A stretch of DNA of 53,241 nucleotides. Source: Bacillota bacterium. Its GTDB lineage: Bacteria; Bacillota; Sulfobacillia; Sulfobacillales; JAIMBI01. Both the position numbers and the translations under genes were made by a program. The notes below the pieces were generated by a model, which was not told the origin of the DNA, did not search any database, and saw only the letters and a program-made list of their open reading frames with translations. Numbering within the stretch: position 1 is the stretch's first letter; every line of letters begins with the position of its first letter. Shown one piece after another: positions 30,891 through 53,241 of the stretch. The stretch is taken from the NCBI GenBank assembly GCA_021797815.1, contig JAJZYZ010000002.1, positions 65,256 through 118,496 of the forward strand, in the 5' to 3' direction.

Positions 30891-31066
30891 ACCCTGCGGT
30901 GTTCGTGCGGTGGTTCGATAGGTTTTGAGCCAACACCAAGACCTAGGGAGCCTGATCCGTCCGGGTGGCCGTCCTGCCCCGTCATCGGGGACTGCGAAAG
31001 CTCGGAGGAGGCACCCACCTGCCAGCGGCAGGTTCAAAACGTCGGAGCCCACGGCATTGTGGGGCA
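30891..31066 (+). ncRNA. ssrS: 6S RNA (RNA polymerase regulator)
   Basis: About 175 nt with the 6S layout. The 5' end CCCTGCGGTG pairs fully, with G-U pairs, with CATTGTGGGG at 31055-31064. The 5' strand carries TGTTCG and then TTTTGAGCC, and the 3' strand carries GGAGCCCACGGCAT, both resembling conserved 6S segments flanking the central bubble. 6S RNA mimics an open promoter, binds housekeeping RNA polymerase and is copied into short product RNAs. It has its own promoter and terminator and no open frame. Position after hisS recalls the Bacillota habit of 6S genes near synthetase genes. Confidence 0.85.
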
Positions 31067-45051: not shown

Positions 45052-45339
45052 TCAGACCGGCCGGCAGTGGATGGCGGCCTCCCCTATCCACAGTTCCTTG
45101 CGGCGAAACACCAGTCGCCCCTCAACCACGATAACCGCGCCTTTTCCGCGCTGGCGGAGTTGTTCCCACTCGGTCTGCGTGCGCGCGACCGCCACCTCGC
45201 TCAGGTTTACGTGCAGTTCGCCCCCGTCCGGTGTGCCGAGCACCCAGTGCGTGCCGTCCGCTTCCGGCAGCCGACGTGAATAAAGGGCCATATCGACGAC
45301 AGCCGCAATCCGCGGTGAGCCCACCTGTAGCGTCTCCAT
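45052..45339 (-). CDS. Hypothetical protein, about 95 residues
   Basis: A soluble, mostly beta-predicted protein (AVVDMALYSRRLPEADGTHWVLGTPDGGELHVNLSEVAVART) ending GAVIVVEGRLVFRRKELWIGEAAIHCRPV. AGGAGG lies 7 nt before the ATG, and a GTG one codon earlier is an alternative. It is the only leftward gene between about 16.2 kb and the right end, converging on the glycosylase gene with a 28-nt gap that holds a small CGCTC/GAGCG hairpin. Family not recognised. Confidence 0.65.
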   Translation of the reverse strand: METLQVGSPRIAAVVDMALYSRRLPEADGTHWVLGTPDGGELHVNLSEVAVARTQTEWEQLRQRGKGAVIVVEGRLVFRRKELWIGEAAIHCRPV

Positions 45340-45409
45340 CACGATTCCTCCTGCTCGCGAGATGTTTCGGGCGGGGGTGAGCCCGTCCCGGTCGTTCCTG
45401 AATTTCTCA

Positions 45410-45418
45410 TGCTAACAT
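45410..45418 (+). promoter_or_regulatory. Possible extended -10 for the MaoC-SDR cluster
   Basis: TG-C-TAACAT lies in the 243-nt divergent gap (45340-45582), about 165 nt before the first MaoC-like gene. No -35 was seen. The rest of the gap shows no gene. Confidence 0.3.
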
Positions 45419-45582
45419 CAAAACCAGCGGCATCTATGGCCATCGGCGGCTTAAGGTCGGGTGCTTGGTCGGCGGCCCAGATGCAGCCGAGGTTCGTCGA
45501 TTCAGAATCCCAGATTCGCGCCCTGCGTGCCACTCGCCTCGCGAAGAAGCTCGCGGGCGTTCTGCCCGGGAAAGGGGCCGCC

Positions 45583-46029
45583 ATGTTTGCGGTGGATGAG
45601 ACGTTGGTGGGCCGAAAGTCCGAGCCCGTGGTGAATGAGATCGAAAAAGGCGCCGTGCGGCGCTTTATGGAGGCCCTCGGAGACACCGATGCCCTGGGTC
45701 TGGACGAGGAGGCCGCGCGGGCGGCCGGTTATCGAAGTCTGCGTGCCCCGCCCACGTTTGCCGTCACCCTTCGACGGAACCCTCCCCCGGGTCTTGTCAT
45801 GCCGCGCGCCGGCACGATCCATGGCGAGCAGCACTTTACATACGGCGCGCCGATTGTGGCGGGCGACCGCATCGCGGTGAGCAGCTGGCTCGAAGACGTG
45901 AAGGTGCGGAACGGGAGCCGGGGCCCGATGACGCTGGTGACGGTGGCGACCGAGGGGATAAATCAGGACGGGGTCAGCGCGTTTGTTGGCCGGGCCATCC
46001 TCATCGTCACCGAAGCGGCCGCCCGATGA
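45583..46029 (+). CDS. MaoC-like hot-dog protein, N-terminal (FAS1-like dehydratase) type
   Basis: 148 residues resembling the non-catalytic half of heteromeric enoyl-CoA hydratases. It starts MFAVDETLVGRKSEPVVNEIEKGAVRRFMEALGD and contains RAPPTFAVTLRR, GTIHGEQHFTYGAPIVAGD and the final strand SAFVGRAILIVTE. It lacks the Asp/His dyad seen in the next gene. The start at 45583 gives family length; a longer frame to 45409 has no support. It overlaps the next gene by ATGA, so a heterodimer is likely. Confidence 0.85.
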   Translation: MFAVDETLVGRKSEPVVNEIEKGAVRRFMEALGDTDALGLDEEAARAAGYRSLRAPPTFAVTLRRNPPPGLVMPRAGTIHGEQHFTYGAPIVAGDRIAVSSWLEDVKVRNGSRGPMTLVTVATEGINQDGVSAFVGRAILIVTEAAAR

Positions 46030-46451
46030 AGGCGGGCGACCGGCTCGGCCCCTACAACCACGAGATGACGCGTGAGCAGCTGGTTCGCTATGCCGGCGCC
46101 TCGGGGGACTTCAATCCTATTCACTACGACGATGAGCGGGCGCGCGAATTTGGCCTTCCTGGAGTCATCGCCCATGGCATGTTGAACATGGGTCTCATCG
46201 CGCGCTATCTGTCCGCCGCCCTACCGGAAGGCGCGCGCTTTGAGGAGTACGGCGTACGGTTTCGCGCCTATGTACGGCCGGGCGAGCGGCTGAGCCTCAC
46301 CGCGCGGGTGGACGAGGTCGTGAAGGAAGCTCGACGAAGCTTGGCCACCCTGTCGATTGAGCTCATGACGGGATCGGGGGTGAGCGCCGTGACCGGGCGG
46401 GCGCGCGTCAGCTGGGCGACCGATGTCGAAGAGACGCGGCCCGCAACCTAG
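46026..46451 (+). CDS. MaoC-like (R)-specific enoyl-CoA hydratase, catalytic half
   Basis: 141 residues with the hydratase-2 motif YAGASGDFNPIHYDDERA: the catalytic Asp28 and His33 are present, followed by GLPGVIAHGMLNMG. With the preceding gene it resembles two-protein hydratases such as ChsH1-ChsH2 of steroid side-chain degradation or the HTD pair of fatty-acid pathways. Substrate is inference from the surrounding acyl-CoA genes. Confidence 0.88.
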   Translation: MKAGDRLGPYNHEMTREQLVRYAGASGDFNPIHYDDERAREFGLPGVIAHGMLNMGLIARYLSAALPEGARFEEYGVRFRAYVRPGERLSLTARVDEVVKEARRSLATLSIELMTGSGVSAVTGRARVSWATDVEETRPAT

Positions 46452-46555
46452 TCGGACGCATGACGGATCGGAGAGCCTACGAACGGAGCCCGGGTAATCG
46501 GCGGATCCCATCATCGCAGAATCCCGGTATCCCAGAGTCCAAGGAGGATCAGCGC

Positions 46556-47311
46556 ATGGGGCAGCTGGATGGACGGGTGGCGGTCGTAAGCGGAGCGGGG
46601 CGGGGCATCGGCCGGGCGGAAGCCGAGCGGCTGGCGGAGGAGGGCGCGGCGGTGGCCGTGCTCGACCTGCGCGAGGAAGACGTGGCGGAGACGGTGCGGC
46701 GGATTCGCGACAGTGGGGGGCGGGCGGAGGGGCTCGTGGCGGACGTCACCGAGCGCGATCAGGTCGAAGAAGCTTTGCAGGCATGTGCTTCGCGCCTCGG
46801 CCCCATAGGGGTTCTGGTCAATAACGCGGGCATCCTGCGCGACAATCTCCTGTTCAAGATGAGCGACGATGACTGGGACATGGTCATGGCGACTCACCTG
46901 AAAGGCACCTTCCTGTGTTCACGGGCCGCGCAGCGCTACATGGTTGAACAGCGGTGGGGAAAGATTGTGAATACCTCGTCCACCTCGGCTCTTGGAAATC
47001 GCGGGCAGGCCAACTATTCGACCGCCAAGGCCGGCCTGCAGGGATTCACCAAGACGCTCGCCATCGAACTCGGCCCCTTCAACATCAACGTGAACGCTGT
47101 AGCCCCCGGGTTTATCGAGACGGATATGACGCGGGCCACCGCCGAGCGGCAGGGCTTTGACTTTGAGGCCTCCAAGACGGCCGCCTCCGCCCGCATTCCG
47201 CTCCGCCGCGTCGGCCAGCCGCGCGACGTCGCCAACGTGGTCGCGTTCCTGTGCTCAGAGGAAGCCGCCTACGTCACCGGGCAGGTCATCTACGTCCGGG
47301 GCGGGCCCTGA
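46556..47311 (+). CDS. SDR-family oxidoreductase (3-oxoacyl reductase/3-hydroxyacyl dehydrogenase-like)
   Basis: A 251-residue short-chain dehydrogenase, FabG-like. The cofactor motif is VSGAGRGIG (about 11-19), followed by NNAG and the catalytic set with Ser in NTSSTS, Tyr154 and Lys158 (NYSTAK). VAPGFIETDM and the end GQVIYVRGG are typical. AAGGAGG lies 8 nt before the ATG. In this cluster it would oxidise the 3-hydroxyacyl-CoA made by the MaoC pair. NAD or NADP preference is unclear; Asp at the end of beta-2 (VLDL) favours NAD. Confidence 0.9.
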   Translation: MGQLDGRVAVVSGAGRGIGRAEAERLAEEGAAVAVLDLREEDVAETVRRIRDSGGRAEGLVADVTERDQVEEALQACASRLGPIGVLVNNAGILRDNLLFKMSDDDWDMVMATHLKGTFLCSRAAQRYMVEQRWGKIVNTSSTSALGNRGQANYSTAKAGLQGFTKTLAIELGPFNINVNAVAPGFIETDMTRATAERQGFDFEASKTAASARIPLRRVGQPRDVANVVAFLCSEEAAYVTGQVIYVRGGP

Positions 47312-47376
47312 CGGGGGCATGGCCGAGAGCGACCCGTCCCGGGACGGGCAAAGGCGTACGTGAAGGAGGCTAAGGT

Positions 47377-48648
47377 CTGTATACCCGGCTTAATCCGTCG
47401 GTGTATCTCGGCGACTCGGGCGATGGGCCGGCCATGATGGCGGGCGGCGCCACGCGGCTTGTGGACTTGCGCGGGGAGACTACCCCGCCCAGATACCGGG
47501 TTCCAGTGGACCACTTCCCCCTGGCGGATCTGCGCGGCGGTCAGCACGAAATGCTGCTGGCGGCCGCGCGCCGGGTGAAGGAGCTGGCGGAGGGGGGCGA
47601 GACGGTCGGCATCTACTGCCAGGCTGGGGTCTCCCGAACCGCGGCCGTGGCTGTCTTGTATCTCATGCTGGCGGGCCTTTCCCGGGCGGATGCCATGCGA
47701 ATGGTGCGCGAACGCCGTCCCCAGGCGCACCCCGCGGAGGCTCTTGACCGGACACTCGACGAACTGGCGGTCGAGCTGTCAGAAGACCGCCTGCAGCCGT
47801 TCACGGTGGACGTCGACGGCGTACGGGTGGCCGGCGTCCGACGGCGGGGTCCGGGCGCGCCGCTCGTGCTCCTGCACGGTGCCTACGGTGATTGGACGCA
47901 CTGGCGCCGCAATCTGGAGCAGCTGGCCACCGCAGCCGACGTGTATGCCCTCGATCTACCCGGTTTCGGAGAGTCGGGAGACGTACCGGGGGCTTACTCC
48001 CACACCGCATACCTGGAGATTCTGGGCCGCGCCATCCGGGCGTTCGTGGACCCGCCAGTGATACTGGGCGGCTATTCGCTCGGCGCCGGTCTGGCGGCGC
48101 GCCTGGCGGTTTCCGACCCGGATCTGGTGCGAGCGTTGCTGCTGGTGTCGCTGGTGGGGCGGACCGGCGACCCTGCCGCCCATCACCCCGTAGACGAGCG
48201 CCACTTCACCCATCCCTCAGATCTGGAAGACCGGCTGTCGGTTCTGGCGCACAATCTCCGCCACTGGCATGTGGCCGACCCCGCCATCGTGGATGAACGG
48301 CTTGTCGCCATGACCTATAAGAGCGTCTTCTTTACCCGTCTCACACCGCGGCGGCTCAGGACCGCGCCCCATCCCATGCCGACCCTGCAGGTTGTGGAGC
48401 GGTTGTCTGGCCTCCCGACCCTGATGGTGTGGGGAGAAGGGGATGCGTTCTGCCAGCCCTCGGCGGCCGAATGGGCAGCGGCCTGCGCGCGGGTGCTGCC
48501 GGGGGCGGCCCAACGCGTCATCCGGGGCGCGGCGCACTTTTGCCAGTGGGAGCGGCCGGATGCCTTCGTCGCGGCGGTGCGGCCGTTTCTAGCCTCTCAG
48601 ACGACGGGCGGGCTGGCCGCGGAAGGAGAGGGCAGTTGTGGAGTCTGA
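47377..48648 (+). CDS. Dual-specificity phosphatase / alpha-beta hydrolase fusion, probable CTG start
   Basis: An unusual two-domain protein of about 423 residues. Residues 1-130 are a DSP-type phosphatase: YLGDSG near the start, a likely acid loop (PLADLR) and the C-x5-R active site IYCQAGVSRTAA (Cys81, Arg87). Residues 140-410 are an alpha-beta hydrolase: oxyanion motif LLHGAYGDW, nucleophile Ser234 (GGYSLGAG), acid Asp356 (GEGDAF) and His387 (GAAHFCQW). A GTG at 47401 has no ribosome site and would cut off the first beta strand. A CTG at 47377 has AAGGAGG 7 nt upstream, directly after an in-frame stop, so CTG is my preferred start. It overlaps the next gene by 11 nt. Confidence 0.82.
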   Translation: MYTRLNPSVYLGDSGDGPAMMAGGATRLVDLRGETTPPRYRVPVDHFPLADLRGGQHEMLLAAARRVKELAEGGETVGIYCQAGVSRTAAVAVLYLMLAGLSRADAMRMVRERRPQAHPAEALDRTLDELAVELSEDRLQPFTVDVDGVRVAGVRRRGPGAPLVLLHGAYGDWTHWRRNLEQLATAADVYALDLPGFGESGDVPGAYSHTAYLEILGRAIRAFVDPPVILGGYSLGAGLAARLAVSDPDLVRALLLVSLVGRTGDPAAHHPVDERHFTHPSDLEDRLSVLAHNLRHWHVADPAIVDERLVAMTYKSVFFTRLTPRRLRTAPHPMPTLQVVERLSGLPTLMVWGEGDAFCQPSAAEWAAACARVLPGAAQRVIRGAAHFCQWERPDAFVAAVRPFLASQTTGGLAAEGEGSCGV

Positions 48649-50734
48649 GCGCAGGCGCCAGCTCACGCGACTCCTGGCACCGGCGTCGGTGGCCGTGGTG
48701 GGGGCCTCTCCCAACTCGCGCTACGGGATGCGCATGCTGGGAAACCTGGCCCGTCGGGACTGGCAGGGCCGCCTGTACGGGGTGAATCCTCGATATCGCG
48801 AGGTTGCCGGATATCCCTGCTACCCGAGCCTCCGGGACCTTCCGGAAGCGGTCGACCTGGTGGTGGTGGCCACGGCGGGAGCGGCCGTGCTCACGGTGCT
48901 GGAAGAGGCGCAGACGGCGGGCGCCGGCGGGGTCATCGTGCTGGCCGCGGACGTTCCCGACAGCCAGCGGGCCCGCATCGCCGAGATCTCGCGCGGATCG
49001 GGCGTGGCGGTGCTGGGTCCGAACTGCCTCGGATATGTCGGGGCGGCGGGCGGCCTCACCGGCGCCTGGTCCATCGGCCTGCCCGAGAAGCCTTTCATCG
49101 GTCCGGGGCCGGCCGTGGTCTCGCAGAGCGGGAATCTCGCGAACCATCTTGTCAACTATTACGTGGGCCAGAGGTTCAGCCATGTCATCTCGTCCGGCAA
49201 TCACTGGGGCGTGAGCCCCATGGAGTTTGTCGAGTGGCTGGTGCCGCGCGGCGAGGTGCGCGTTCTGGGCGCCATCATTGAGGGAAAGCCGGATGCCGAG
49301 GGGTTTGCCGCCGCGGCCGAGGCGGCGCGGCAGGCGCGAAAGCCGCTGTGCGTGCTCCACCTCGGGCGCAGCGCGCTCGGCCGGGCGATGGCGGAGGCGC
49401 ACACGGGGGCTCTAGCCGCCGGCGACGAGTGGTGGCGGGCCATGCGCCGGCGCGTGCCTTTTGCCGAGGCCACCGACCTGGAGGAGTTTGCCGCCATCCT
49501 GAAACTTTTGGGCCGGCTCGGGGAGCCCGGTCATCTCCGGGTCGGACTCGCCGCCAGTTCCGGTGGGGAGTGCGGCCTAATGGCCGATCTGGCCGAGACG
49601 CTGGGGGTGGACCTGGCGGAACTCACCCAAGAGAGCCGGGTCCGCCTGCGGCGCGCGCTGCCGGTGTATGTCCATCCGCAAAACCCGCTCGACTACGGGG
49701 CCAGCACCTGGGGCACCGAGGAGCCCTATCAGACCGTGGTGACGGAGCTCGCGGCGGACGCCCATGTGGACCTTGCCGGGGCGGTGCAGGACTTTCCCGG
49801 ACACCCGGACCATGTGGGACCCTGGGAGACGATGATGGACGGCGCGGCCCATGCTCAGCGGAGCACGGGCAAACCGGTCCTGGTTATGACGACCATGGGC
49901 GGGGTCCCGGAGCGGTACTACGACCGCGCGGAGAGCTTGGGACTCCAGATATTTGCCGGGCTCAGGCCCACCATGGCCGGGCTCGGAGAGGTAACGCGCC
50001 TCGGGCGGGAGGCCGCCGCCTGGGTCCGGCCGCAGCCGCGCCCGGAACGGGCCCGGCCGCCCCTCGGACGCGGTCCCTGGAACGAGCAGACGGCCAAGGA
50101 GGTACTGGCCGAGTGGGGACTCGGCCATCCTCGGGGAATGCGGGCCGACTCCCTGGCGGAGCTGCCGCACGCCGCCGATCTGGTGGGCTATCCGGTCGTG
50201 CTGAAGGCTTTGAGCGTGCGCCACAAATCAGACGTAGGCGCCGTAGCCGTGAACCTGGCCGCCGAACACGAGCTTCGCGAGGCGGGCCGCGAGATGGAGC
50301 GGCGGCTCCGGAACGCCGGGGTTCAGGCCCACGGCTTTTTGGTGGAGGCCTATGTCCCCGGTCGACTCGAGTGGTTTGTGGGTGGATCCACCGTGAGCGG
50401 GGTGCTGGTGACGGGCCCCGGCGGCGTTGATGTGGAGATCTGGCGAGACACGGCTCCCATTCTCATCGGCGCCTCCCCGGAAGAGGTGAGCCGGGCCCTC
50501 GATGAAACCCGGGCAAGCCGGATCCTGGCCGGCCATCGCGGGCACGCTCGGTATGACGTCGACGCCCTGGTGGGGGCGTTGGTGAATCTCTCGGACTTTC
50601 TTTCACATTATCGCGAGCGCCGGATTACGGTTGATGTGAACCCGCTTTTGGTGGGAGAAGTTGGAGAAGGCGTGCTGGCCGCCGACGTGCTTCTTCTGGA
50701 GGAGGATCTGGCGGTGCAGGAAGGGAGCTCGTGA
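48638..50734 (+). CDS. Fused NDP-forming acyl-CoA synthetase (acetate-CoA ligase family)
   Basis: A 698-residue protein joining the alpha (CoA-binding) and beta (ATP-grasp) parts of ADP-forming acyl-CoA synthetases. The N-terminal Rossmann domain begins ASVAVVGASPNSRYGMRMLGNL; PNCLGY and VSQSGNLA follow. The probable phospho-His is His255 (EAHTGALA), near H257 of the Pyrococcus enzyme. The ATP-grasp half starts at about 475 with VVLKALSVRHKSDVGAVAVNL and ends VDVNPLLVGE. It overlaps both neighbours. In this cluster it probably activates an organic acid, or makes ATP from the acyl-CoA product. Confidence 0.88.
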   Translation: MESERRRQLTRLLAPASVAVVGASPNSRYGMRMLGNLARRDWQGRLYGVNPRYREVAGYPCYPSLRDLPEAVDLVVVATAGAAVLTVLEEAQTAGAGGVIVLAADVPDSQRARIAEISRGSGVAVLGPNCLGYVGAAGGLTGAWSIGLPEKPFIGPGPAVVSQSGNLANHLVNYYVGQRFSHVISSGNHWGVSPMEFVEWLVPRGEVRVLGAIIEGKPDAEGFAAAAEAARQARKPLCVLHLGRSALGRAMAEAHTGALAAGDEWWRAMRRRVPFAEATDLEEFAAILKLLGRLGEPGHLRVGLAASSGGECGLMADLAETLGVDLAELTQESRVRLRRALPVYVHPQNPLDYGASTWGTEEPYQTVVTELAADAHVDLAGAVQDFPGHPDHVGPWETMMDGAAHAQRSTGKPVLVMTTMGGVPERYYDRAESLGLQIFAGLRPTMAGLGEVTRLGREAAAWVRPQPRPERARPPLGRGPWNEQTAKEVLAEWGLGHPRGMRADSLAELPHAADLVGYPVVLKALSVRHKSDVGAVAVNLAAEHELREAGREMERRLRNAGVQAHGFLVEAYVPGRLEWFVGGSTVSGVLVTGPGGVDVEIWRDTAPILIGASPEEVSRALDETRASRILAGHRGHARYDVDALVGALVNLSDFLSHYRERRITVDVNPLLVGEVGEGVLAADVLLLEEDLAVQEGSS

Positions 50735-51507
50735 TGGCGTTTGTGGAAATAGCGGTGCAGGAGCAGGTGGGGGTGCTGCGGTTAAACCGTCCTGAGCGGC
50801 TGAACGCTCTGTCCTTCGATGTGCTGAGCGAGTTTCGGGCCGCGCTTGCCGAGCTCCGCGTCCGGGAGGTTCGCGCCCTCGTCCTCACAGGGACCGGCCG
50901 GGCTTTTTCAGCCGGAGCCGATGTGAAGGAATGGGCGTCTTCGGAGCGGGACCCGGGCGCGCCGTCCTGGGGCGAGTTGGCGCACGCGCTGATGGCGGAG
51001 TACTACGAGTTTCCGGTGCCCAAGGTTGCGGCCGTGAATGGCCTCGCGTATGGGGCCGGCTGCGACTTCGCACTGGCCTCCGACATCCGCATCGCGCACC
51101 CCGAGGCCCGATTCTGCGAGGCGTACATCCGTCTTGCCATCCCTCCGGATGTGGGCGGCACCTGGCTTCTGCCGCGAGTCGTCGGCGAGGCGCGGGCGCT
51201 CGAGATGATAATCACGGGGCGGGAAGTGGGGGCGGAAGAGGCGGCACGCATCGGTCTTGTGAATGTGGTTACCGGCGAGGACAACTTCTGGCCCACGGTG
51301 GAGGAGTGGGCGGGACGCCTCGCCCACGGACCCACGGCCGCCATCCGCCTCGCGCGCGATCTGGTGCGCGGCTCGGCGGGTCTCCAACTTCGGAGTGGTC
51401 TCGCCGCTGAAGATCGGGCCACCCAGTCTCTTCATGACAGCCACGACCATCGAGAGGCGCTCGCGGCTCAGGTGGAGAAGCGGGCCGTAACGTTCCTGGG
51501 ACACTAA
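50734..51507 (+). CDS. Enoyl-CoA hydratase/isomerase family protein
   Basis: A 257-residue crotonase. The oxyanion segments are FSAGADVKEW (about 60-70) and VNGLAYGAGCDFALASDIRIA. The catalytic stretch is CEAYIRLAIPPDVGGTWLLPRVVG, where Asp stands at the second acid position; the first, usually Glu, is not clear. An isomerase or unusual hydratase is possible. Its start overlaps the previous stop (GTGATGG), with GGGAG upstream. It likely acts in the same pathway as the two following dehydrogenases. Confidence 0.87.
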   Translation: MAFVEIAVQEQVGVLRLNRPERLNALSFDVLSEFRAALAELRVREVRALVLTGTGRAFSAGADVKEWASSERDPGAPSWGELAHALMAEYYEFPVPKVAAVNGLAYGAGCDFALASDIRIAHPEARFCEAYIRLAIPPDVGGTWLLPRVVGEARALEMIITGREVGAEEAARIGLVNVVTGEDNFWPTVEEWAGRLAHGPTAAIRLARDLVRGSAGLQLRSGLAAEDRATQSLHDSHDHREALAAQVEKRAVTFLGH

Positions 51508-51520
51508 CGGGGAGGGACGC

Positions 51521-52675
51521 ATGGACTTCAATTTTTCGTCGGAGCAGTATCTCCTGCGTGACAGCGCCCGCGATCTGTTTTCGGCCATCGCGGGTCCGGG
51601 CGTCGCTCGCACCGCCTACCGCGATAAAGCCACGGTGGCCGAGCGCCTGCGCGCGCCCCTGGCGGAGCACGGCATGCTGGGTGCCGGCGTCCCCGAGGCG
51701 CTGGGCGGAAGCGGGCTTTCCCCGCTCGACATGGCGCTAATCTTCGAGGCGAGCGGGGCATCGCTCCTGCCTTATCCCCTGATGGAGACCTATGTGGCCG
51801 CGCGCGCCCTGGCGCGGGGATCGCAGAGCCCCCTGCAGGACCGTCTGGGTGAGGCCGTGGCCGCCGGGGACGAGACTGTCACGGTCGGGTGGGGCAGTCC
51901 GGACGGCCTCTTTACAGGGACCGGCGTGCAGGCGGTGGGATCTTCGCCGGTGCGCCTGTACGGCCGGCGGACGTTCGTTCCTTTCGCTGCCGCCGCCAGC
52001 CTGATCGTGATGCCGGTGGAGTGGAAAGCGGCCGGCGGCATCGCCCTGGTGCGGGTGGACCCTCGCGCCGAGGGCATCGATGTCGTGGCTCTCGAGAGCC
52101 TCGACGGCTCCTATCCCCTCTATGCCCTTGAATTTCACGGAGCGGAGCTCACACCCGACGCCGTGGTGGGCTACGGGCGGGAGCTCTTCGTGGAGATGCG
52201 GTCGACGGCCTGGGCAGCGCTGGCGTTTGAGGCGCTCGGGGCCGCGGAGGAGGCGTTTTCGGCCACGGTTGAGTACGTGAAGGTGCGCGAGCAGTTTGGC
52301 CAGCCGGTGGGGCGATTCCAGGCCGTGAAGCATACCGCCGCCGACGACTACCTCCTGGTGGAAAGTGCGCGTGTGGCCGGCCGTTATGCGGCCTGGGCCG
52401 TCTCCGAGGACGGGGCCGAGGCGCCGCTGTACGCCGCGCTGGCCAAATCCTACGCGTCGGAGGCCGCCCGTACCGTCACCAGCGACGCGATCCAGCTCCA
52501 TGGGGGCATCGGGTATACGTGGGACAGCGACATGCATCTGTACTTCAAGCGCGCATGGCGGGTAGCCGCGGAACTGGGAACGCCCATCCAGATCCGAGAA
52601 CAGATGGCGCGTCTGGTGTTGGACGGGACCGGGCCTTTCAAATCCACAGCGCCGGTGGGGGGAGGAGACGCATGA
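51521..52675 (+). CDS. Acyl-CoA dehydrogenase, subunit lacking the YEGT glutamate
   Basis: 384 residues with the ACAD fold: MDFNFSSEQYLLRDSARDLF, REQFGQPVGRFQAVKHTAAD and AIQLHGGIGYTWDSDMHLYFKRAW. The C-terminal YEGT base motif is missing, and the FAD-binding middle region is divergent (GWGSPDG for the usual TEPGAGSD). These traits match the partner subunit of heteromeric ACADs such as FadE26-FadE27 of actinobacterial steroid degradation. GGGGAGG lies before the ATG. It overlaps the next ACAD gene by ATGA. Confidence 0.88.
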   Translation: MDFNFSSEQYLLRDSARDLFSAIAGPGVARTAYRDKATVAERLRAPLAEHGMLGAGVPEALGGSGLSPLDMALIFEASGASLLPYPLMETYVAARALARGSQSPLQDRLGEAVAAGDETVTVGWGSPDGLFTGTGVQAVGSSPVRLYGRRTFVPFAAAASLIVMPVEWKAAGGIALVRVDPRAEGIDVVALESLDGSYPLYALEFHGAELTPDAVVGYGRELFVEMRSTAWAALAFEALGAAEEAFSATVEYVKVREQFGQPVGRFQAVKHTAADDYLLVESARVAGRYAAWAVSEDGAEAPLYAALAKSYASEAARTVTSDAIQLHGGIGYTWDSDMHLYFKRAWRVAAELGTPIQIREQMARLVLDGTGPFKSTAPVGGGDA

Positions 52676-53241
52676 ATATCGCGTACACGGAAGCCGAGGA
52701 AGCTTTCCGCACCCGGTGCCGGGAGTTCCTGGACGAGGTGCTGCCGGAGGGATGGGGAACCCCCGCCCACCCGGCTCCTCAGGACGCCGAGGAGCGAGCC
52801 CGGGTCGGATTGTGGTGGGAGAAGACCCTTTACGCGCACGGGATGGCCGGTCTGTCGTGGCCGCGGGAGTATGGCGGCCAGGGCCTCTCCTGGGTCGAGG
52901 AAGTCATCTTCGCCGAGGAGTGCGCGCGTGTCGGTGCGCCTGCCGGCATCAACGGCCTTGGCAAGGGACTTTTGGGCCCTACGCTGCTGGTGGAGGGGAG
53001 CGAAGCCCAGAAGCAGCGCTTCCTGCGGCCGCTGCTCGCAGGAGACGAGGTCTGGTGTCAGGGATATTCGGAGCCGAACTCCGGGTCGGATCTGGCTTCT
53101 CTGCGCACACGCGCGGAGCTTCAGGGCGACGAGTGGATCTTGAGCGGCCAGAAAATCTGGACGTCAAACGCCCACCTCGCGGACTGGTGCTTCGTGCTGG
53201 CACGGACCGACCCCAGCGTTCCCAAGCATCGGGGCATCACA
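52672..53241 (+). CDS. Acyl-CoA dehydrogenase (partial, runs off the right edge)
   Basis: The first 190 residues are visible, with no stop before the edge. MNIAYTEAEEAFRTRCREFLDE opens the protein, followed by GLSWPREYGGQGLSWVEEVIFAEE and the FAD/substrate loop GYSEPNSGSDLASLRTRAE, then GQKIWTSNAHLADWCFVLART. The intact SEPNSGSD loop contrasts with the preceding ACAD, so this is probably the FAD-binding half of a heterotetramer. The catalytic base lies beyond the window. Confidence 0.9.
   Translation, partial: MNIAYTEAEEAFRTRCREFLDEVLPEGWGTPAHPAPQDAEERARVGLWWEKTLYAHGMAGLSWPREYGGQGLSWVEEVIFAEECARVGAPAGINGLGKGLLGPTLLVEGSEAQKQRFLRPLLAGDEVWCQGYSEPNSGSDLASLRTRAELQGDEWILSGQKIWTSNAHLADWCFVLARTDPSVPKHRGIT

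Follow-up and report, generated by a model that had tools for sequence, protein, structure and literature searches.

A single gene encodes an N-terminal DSP-type cysteine phosphatase joined to a C-terminal alpha/beta hydrolase with a Ser-His-Asp triad, and it lies within a conserved acyl-CoA catabolic gene cluster. Positions refer to the window, which is the whole stretch of DNA that was analysed, 53,241 nucleotides in length. The best explanation, given about an even chance of being right, is that the product is a pathway hydrolase carrying an accessory, usually active phosphatase or sensor domain, translated from a CTG codon and fixed in its operon.

The fusion protein and its family

The features of the gene are as follows.

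47377–48648, + strand: DSP phosphatase and alpha/beta hydrolase fusion gene, 423 amino acids plus stop
47377–47784, + strand: DSP-type phosphatase domain, residues 1–136 (PF00782)
47527–47529, + strand: Asp51, putative general acid, kept in every copy with an intact P-loop
47617–47637, + strand: P-loop C81-Q-A-G-V-S-R87 (C-x5-R), from the sequence and the family alignment
47788–48600, + strand: alpha/beta hydrolase domain, residues 138–408 (PF00561/PF12697), with structural matches to CarC, HsaD and BphD
48076–48078, + strand: nucleophile Ser234 (G-Y-S-L-G), invariant in 7 of 7 fusions
48442–48444, + strand: Asp356 of the triad, invariant in 7 of 7
48535–48537, + strand: His387 of the triad, invariant in 7 of 7

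Within 47341–48648 one frame stays open between a TAA at 47371 and the TGA at 48646–48648 and, read from CTG 47377, gives 423 residues (coding 47377–48645). Both Pfam matches exceed the curated cut-offs: DSPc (PF00782) at residues 60–128, with an E-value of 9e-12 and 45.4 bits against a cut-off of 33.5, and Abhydrolase_1/6 at residues 162–400, with an E-value of 4e-20 and 73.0 bits for PF00561 and 73.9 bits for PF12697. The profile score together with the C-x5-R motif and Asp places the first half in the DSP/PTP cysteine phosphatase superfamily; the fold, the G-x-S-x-G elbow and the Ser-Asp-His triad place the second in the alpha/beta hydrolase superfamily. An AlphaFold2 model of the full-length protein, built with seven sequences, predicts both domains with confidence (mean pLDDT 86.8, pTM 0.85). 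The sequence and Pfam thus agree with an earlier note on this DNA, which had described one frame carrying both enzymes with their catalytic residues intact, and its numbering of Cys81 and Ser234 is correct given the CTG start.

Six more full-length fused homologues, in the same domain order and at 38–80% identity, are present in five of the 61 related genomes searched. Identity is 80% in the sister species (G001), 49% in G039, 47% in G037, 45% in G009 and 42% in G010; the additional copy of G001 is about 38–39% identical. Compared with the sister species, the phosphatase half has a dN/dS of 0.14 and the hydrolase half one of 0.12. These full-length homologues and the low dN/dS values argue that the fusion is more than chance. 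The earlier note had allowed that homologues might be split by a frameshift between the domains, and none of the six is. A frameshift or assembly artefact was rejected on the strength of these other copies, one of which (G009) sits in a single-contig chromosome of 3.47 Mb. The comparisons show that the fusion is a true single protein and not an artefact.

Among all 154 genomes of the class the fusion family is confined to one order, and a 398-genome sample across the phylum contained no fusions besides those of the source genome and G009. No stand-alone orthologue of the hydrolase was found among the 154 genomes, where E-values jump from 1e-134 to 1e-27 with nothing between. The possibility of two separate genes elsewhere was accordingly rejected for the hydrolase, whereas the phosphatase does occur alone in one case (G002, 64% identity). 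A scan of genome contigs returned the sister species and two hydrolase-only matches at 26–35% identity; plasmid records gave hydrolase-only matches at about 30% identity and no fusion match. Phyla beyond that of the host were covered by pattern scan only. As judged from these genomes, the family is small, restricted to date to a single bacterial order and in every case beside acyl-CoA breakdown genes.

Probable initiation at a CTG codon

The sequence around the start has four features.

47363–47369, + strand: Shine-Dalgarno site AAGGAGG, 7 nt before the CTG
47371–47373, + strand: in-frame TAA stop
47377–47379, + strand: putative CTG start codon (residue 1), also present in the sister species, with homologue starts one codon downstream of this column
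47401–47403, + strand: GTG (Val9), the conventional start expected from an ORF caller, but GTC and so no start codon in the sister species

The ribosome site and its spacing are as the earlier note had given them. The CTG was also said to follow the in-frame stop directly; in fact GGT (47374–47376) separates the two. The window has three occurrences of AGGAGG-N5-8-CTG, so a ribosome site followed by CTG would be weak evidence on its own, and the case for the CTG is built instead on comparison. The two further occurrences are at 31006 and 35451 on the + strand.

In the sister species both the ribosome site (GGAGGAGGAG) and the CTG are retained, the start region reading GGAGGAGGAGACGGT-CTG-CTT. 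Codons 3–22 differ between the two species by six synonymous changes and no amino-acid change (dN/dS of zero), and the only codons available between the in-frame TAA and the conserved codon 3 are GGT, CTG and TAT. In six distant copies (the lone DSP and five of the fusions) the start is an ATG or GTG one codon downstream of the CTG column. Structure points the same way: the first strand of the predicted DSP fold consists of residues 3–6, upstream of Val9, and the alignment with DUSP structures begins at profile position 3. In one sister species, then, the CTG is conserved and there is no usable alternative. Translation of the fusion very probably starts at CTG 47377, as had been proposed.

Initiation at GTG 47401, or at Met20, with the upstream CTG there by chance, is very improbable. 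GTG is a common start codon and the three occurrences of the CTG pattern would suit a chance origin, but the GTC of the sister species cannot serve as a start there, codons 3–8 are altered only at synonymous sites, and a protein begun at Val9 would lose the first strand of the DSP fold. No ribosome site was found before this GTG, in agreement with the earlier note. An upstream frame joined by a frameshift was rejected as well: by eye, the GTG-initiated frames before the CTG differ between the two sister species, and there is therefore no conserved upstream frame.

A precedent is the RepFIB rep gene of E. coli plasmids, which likewise combines a CTG start and a good ribosome site with an in-frame GTG farther on that is picked in error; it is widely misannotated at the GTG 14 codons downstream (PMC11983097). 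It encodes an unrelated protein, and N-terminal analysis and mutation were used to test its CTG, whereas that of the fusion is supported by comparison. Among nearly 85,000 genes of model bacteria, just 20 carry an annotated CTG start (PMC11983097), and in E. coli CTG yields about 1% of the level obtained with ATG, according to a figure cited in PMC10449621. The FIB rep gene offers a tested example of low expression from a CTG paired with a strong ribosome site (PMC11983097), and the same pairing probably keeps the level of the fusion protein low within its operon. The fusion start is a rare case of comparatively supported CTG initiation on a bacterial chromosome. Standard gene callers misplace such starts at a downstream GTG, which removes the first strand of the domain.

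The acyl-CoA operon and the hydrolase half

The fusion is surrounded by the following genes.

45409–46029, + strand: MaoC/FAS1_DH-type dehydratase gene 1 (PF13452), ORF as called with the true start probably downstream
46026–46451, + strand: MaoC-type dehydratase gene 2 (PF01575)
46460–47311, + strand: SDR/FabG-type dehydrogenase (Pfam), ORF as called
48638–50734, + strand: ADP-forming acyl-CoA synthetase (PF13380/PF13607/PF13549), its start overlapping the fusion end by 11 nt
50731–51507, + strand: enoyl-CoA hydratase (crotonase) family gene (PF00378)
51521–52675, + strand: acyl-CoA dehydrogenase, PimD/IpdE2-like subunit
52519–53241, + strand: ORF with the 5' part of a second, PimC-like acyl-CoA dehydrogenase gene, truncated where the contig ends, with its true start close to 52672

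The location of the fusion inside an acyl-CoA cluster, already remarked upon in the earlier note, proves to be conserved. The two MaoC-type dehydratase genes lie just upstream of the fusion in all seven loci, with the SDR gene inserted between them and the fusion in the source genome and the sister species. Downstream, six of the seven loci have two acyl-CoA dehydrogenase genes, one PimD-like and one PimC-like, either immediately after the fusion or beyond the genes for the ADP-forming acyl-CoA synthetase and crotonase. The names PimC/PimD and IpdE2 denote resemblances, every score being below the curated cut-offs; the truncated ORF at 52519–53241 is 89% identical to an ORF of the sister species (L038 3270–4469) that matches pimC_large. 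Some relatives have thiolase, AMP-ligase, transporter or IclR regulator genes near the fusion. The fusion is a fixed member of an acyl-CoA catabolic operon with paired MaoC dehydratases and paired PimD/PimC-type dehydrogenases, joined in the source genome by the SDR, the crotonase and the ADP-forming acyl-CoA synthetase. Just upstream of the operon, a 96-amino-acid ORF (45052–45342, − strand) has no Pfam match and is 95% identical in the sister species (L038 11729–12019); it is an uncharacterised conserved small protein.

Within this operon the hydrolase half most likely has the core job, the hydrolytic cleavage of a pathway substrate or intermediate, for which an ester, a lactone, a thioester and a carbon-carbon bond are all possible targets. 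Its closest solved folds are those of meta-cleavage product C-C hydrolases. The top 14 structural matches are all of CarC, DxnB2, HsaD, BphD or CumD (Z of 27.4–29.9, CarC having 29.9), and the best sequence-profile match is to HsaD (E-value 6e-22). The Ser-His-Asp triad and an aromatic residue after the His are shared with these enzymes. An Asn before the nucleophilic Ser and an Arg in the cap domain are diagnostic of the class. In the fusions, the residue preceding the nucleophile is Tyr in 7 of 7, where HsaD has Asn (G-N-S-L-G), and the residues aligned with the Arg of the HsaD VDQR motif (BphD Arg190) are R, R, Q, K, Q, R and F, with R in the source copy. Because of the Tyr and the unconserved Arg, the hydrolase half is not classed as a C-C hydrolase; the attached DSP domain is a further difference.

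It is quite improbable that the hydrolase half is nevertheless a meta-cleavage-type C-C hydrolase of a ring-degrading pathway, similar to HsaD or CarC. Besides the structural and profile matches, the resemblance of one acyl-CoA dehydrogenase to IpdE2 of steroid degradation would suit such a role. However, the Z scores exceed those of generic esterases by only about 3, no ring-cleaving dioxygenase was found among the neighbours tested, and the two diagnostic positions differ as described.

The phosphatase half and the working of the two domains

The DSP half was also folded and structure-searched alone; the list for the full-length model had been filled by hydrolase matches. Its nearest folds are DUSP28, DUSP14 and Tk-PTP, with which it shares the fold, the C-x5-R loop, the upstream Asp and the N-terminal strand pattern. 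It differs from them in its identity of about 25%, the attached hydrolase and the existence of two family members without catalytic residues. These neighbours leave proteins, lipids and small molecules as possible substrates. Enzymes with DSP folds are active on lipids, sugars and RNA as well. The phosphatase half would have an accessory function, dephosphorylating a pathway metabolite or protein or sensing a phosphorylated ligand, and a sensor or regulatory role may include the phospho-lipid sensing that had been suggested.

The two halves differ in how their catalytic residues are kept. The hydrolase triad is present in 7 of 7 fusions, while the phosphatase Cys and Arg are lost in two: the G010 copy is without Cys, Arg and Asp, and the second G001 copy is without Cys and Arg, yet still stands in the MaoC-MaoC-fusion-PimD-PimC order. 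These pseudophosphatase copies, with the hydrolase triad intact, are at L039 3456–4709 and L010 1489–2706. In the motif-intact copies the DSP half is conserved equally to the hydrolase half or more so; between the source copy and its distant homologues identity is 50–56% in the DSP half and 43–45% in the hydrolase half. In the copies that have lost the motif, the corresponding values are about 25–37% and 41–49%. Good conservation of the DSP half where the motif is kept, together with its dN/dS, suggests that the phosphatase is active in most copies. The pattern is read as a hydrolase step needed in every copy and a phosphatase that is selected and active in most, yet separable.

The lone DSP gene of G002 (L044 9194–9634, GTG start, 146 amino acids) is flanked by PimC/PimD-like acyl-CoA dehydrogenase genes, which ties the phosphatase half to operons of this type even without the hydrolase. 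This DSP has a weak match to PF22785 (polymorphic-toxin-associated DSP), under its cut-off. A phosphoprotein phosphatase controlling the acyl-CoA dehydrogenase/dehydratase complex, and tethered to an operon enzyme for localisation, would fit both this gene and the closeness of the fold to the protein phosphatases DUSP28, DUSP14 and Tk-PTP. It is nonetheless rather unlikely, as a common fold indicates no substrate and the substrates of DSP folds extend well beyond proteins.

A bifunctional catalyst, in which both sites act in sequence on one substrate with dephosphorylation followed by acyl or ester cleavage or the reverse, is distinctly unlikely. Five of the 7 fusions retain both motifs, purifying selection acts on both halves, and in these loci the halves are always fused. 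Against this, the loss of the phosphatase residues in two fusions, with the triad kept in all, argues against an obligatory two-step reaction; one of the two is in an operon with the usual MaoC-MaoC-fusion-PimD-PimC order, the DSP stands alone in one genome, and no phosphate-handling gene (kinase or phosphotransferase) was recognised among the neighbours tested. The coupling of dephosphorylation to ester or thioester cleavage raised in the earlier note is so far unsupported as an obligatory one, on account of the two degenerate copies and the lone DSP of G002. It is improbable that the Cys phosphatase and the serine hydrolase work jointly on a single phosphorylated intermediate, acyl or derived from acyl-CoA, in a novel pathway of acyl-CoA breakdown, with the conserved CTG limiting dosage.

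The preferred reading, a pathway hydrolase with an accessory phosphatase, has its own difficulty. In the intact subgroup, conservation is higher in the DSP half than in the hydrolase, and the DSP occurs alone in G002; both facts sit awkwardly with the term accessory. The degenerate copies may do a different job, and they are therefore no proof that the phosphatase is accessory in the source copy.

In mammalian soluble epoxide hydrolase (EPHX2), the phosphatase is of the HAD type and the hydrolase uses an Asp nucleophile. This enzyme is the nearest analogue in layout, with a phosphatase followed by an alpha/beta hydrolase in one chain and a relation to lipids in both cases. The fusion has instead a Cys-based DSP and a Ser234 nucleophile, and these differences in phosphatase class and nucleophile make it an independent combination rather than a member of the EPHX2 type. 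The lipid phosphatase at the N terminus of EPHX2 and the alpha/beta hydrolase at its C terminus regulate each other's activity (PMC11676941). Searches of the open-licence literature turned up no account of a protein joining a DSP to an alpha/beta hydrolase, and this operon-linked combination of two known folds, confined to a single order among the searched genomes, is apparently undescribed. Two common enzyme types have been joined, and several genera keep the join alongside one fixed group of acyl-CoA genes. Such a join predicts that these pathways would include a hydrolytic step with phosphate-linked control or a phosphate-linked co-substrate.
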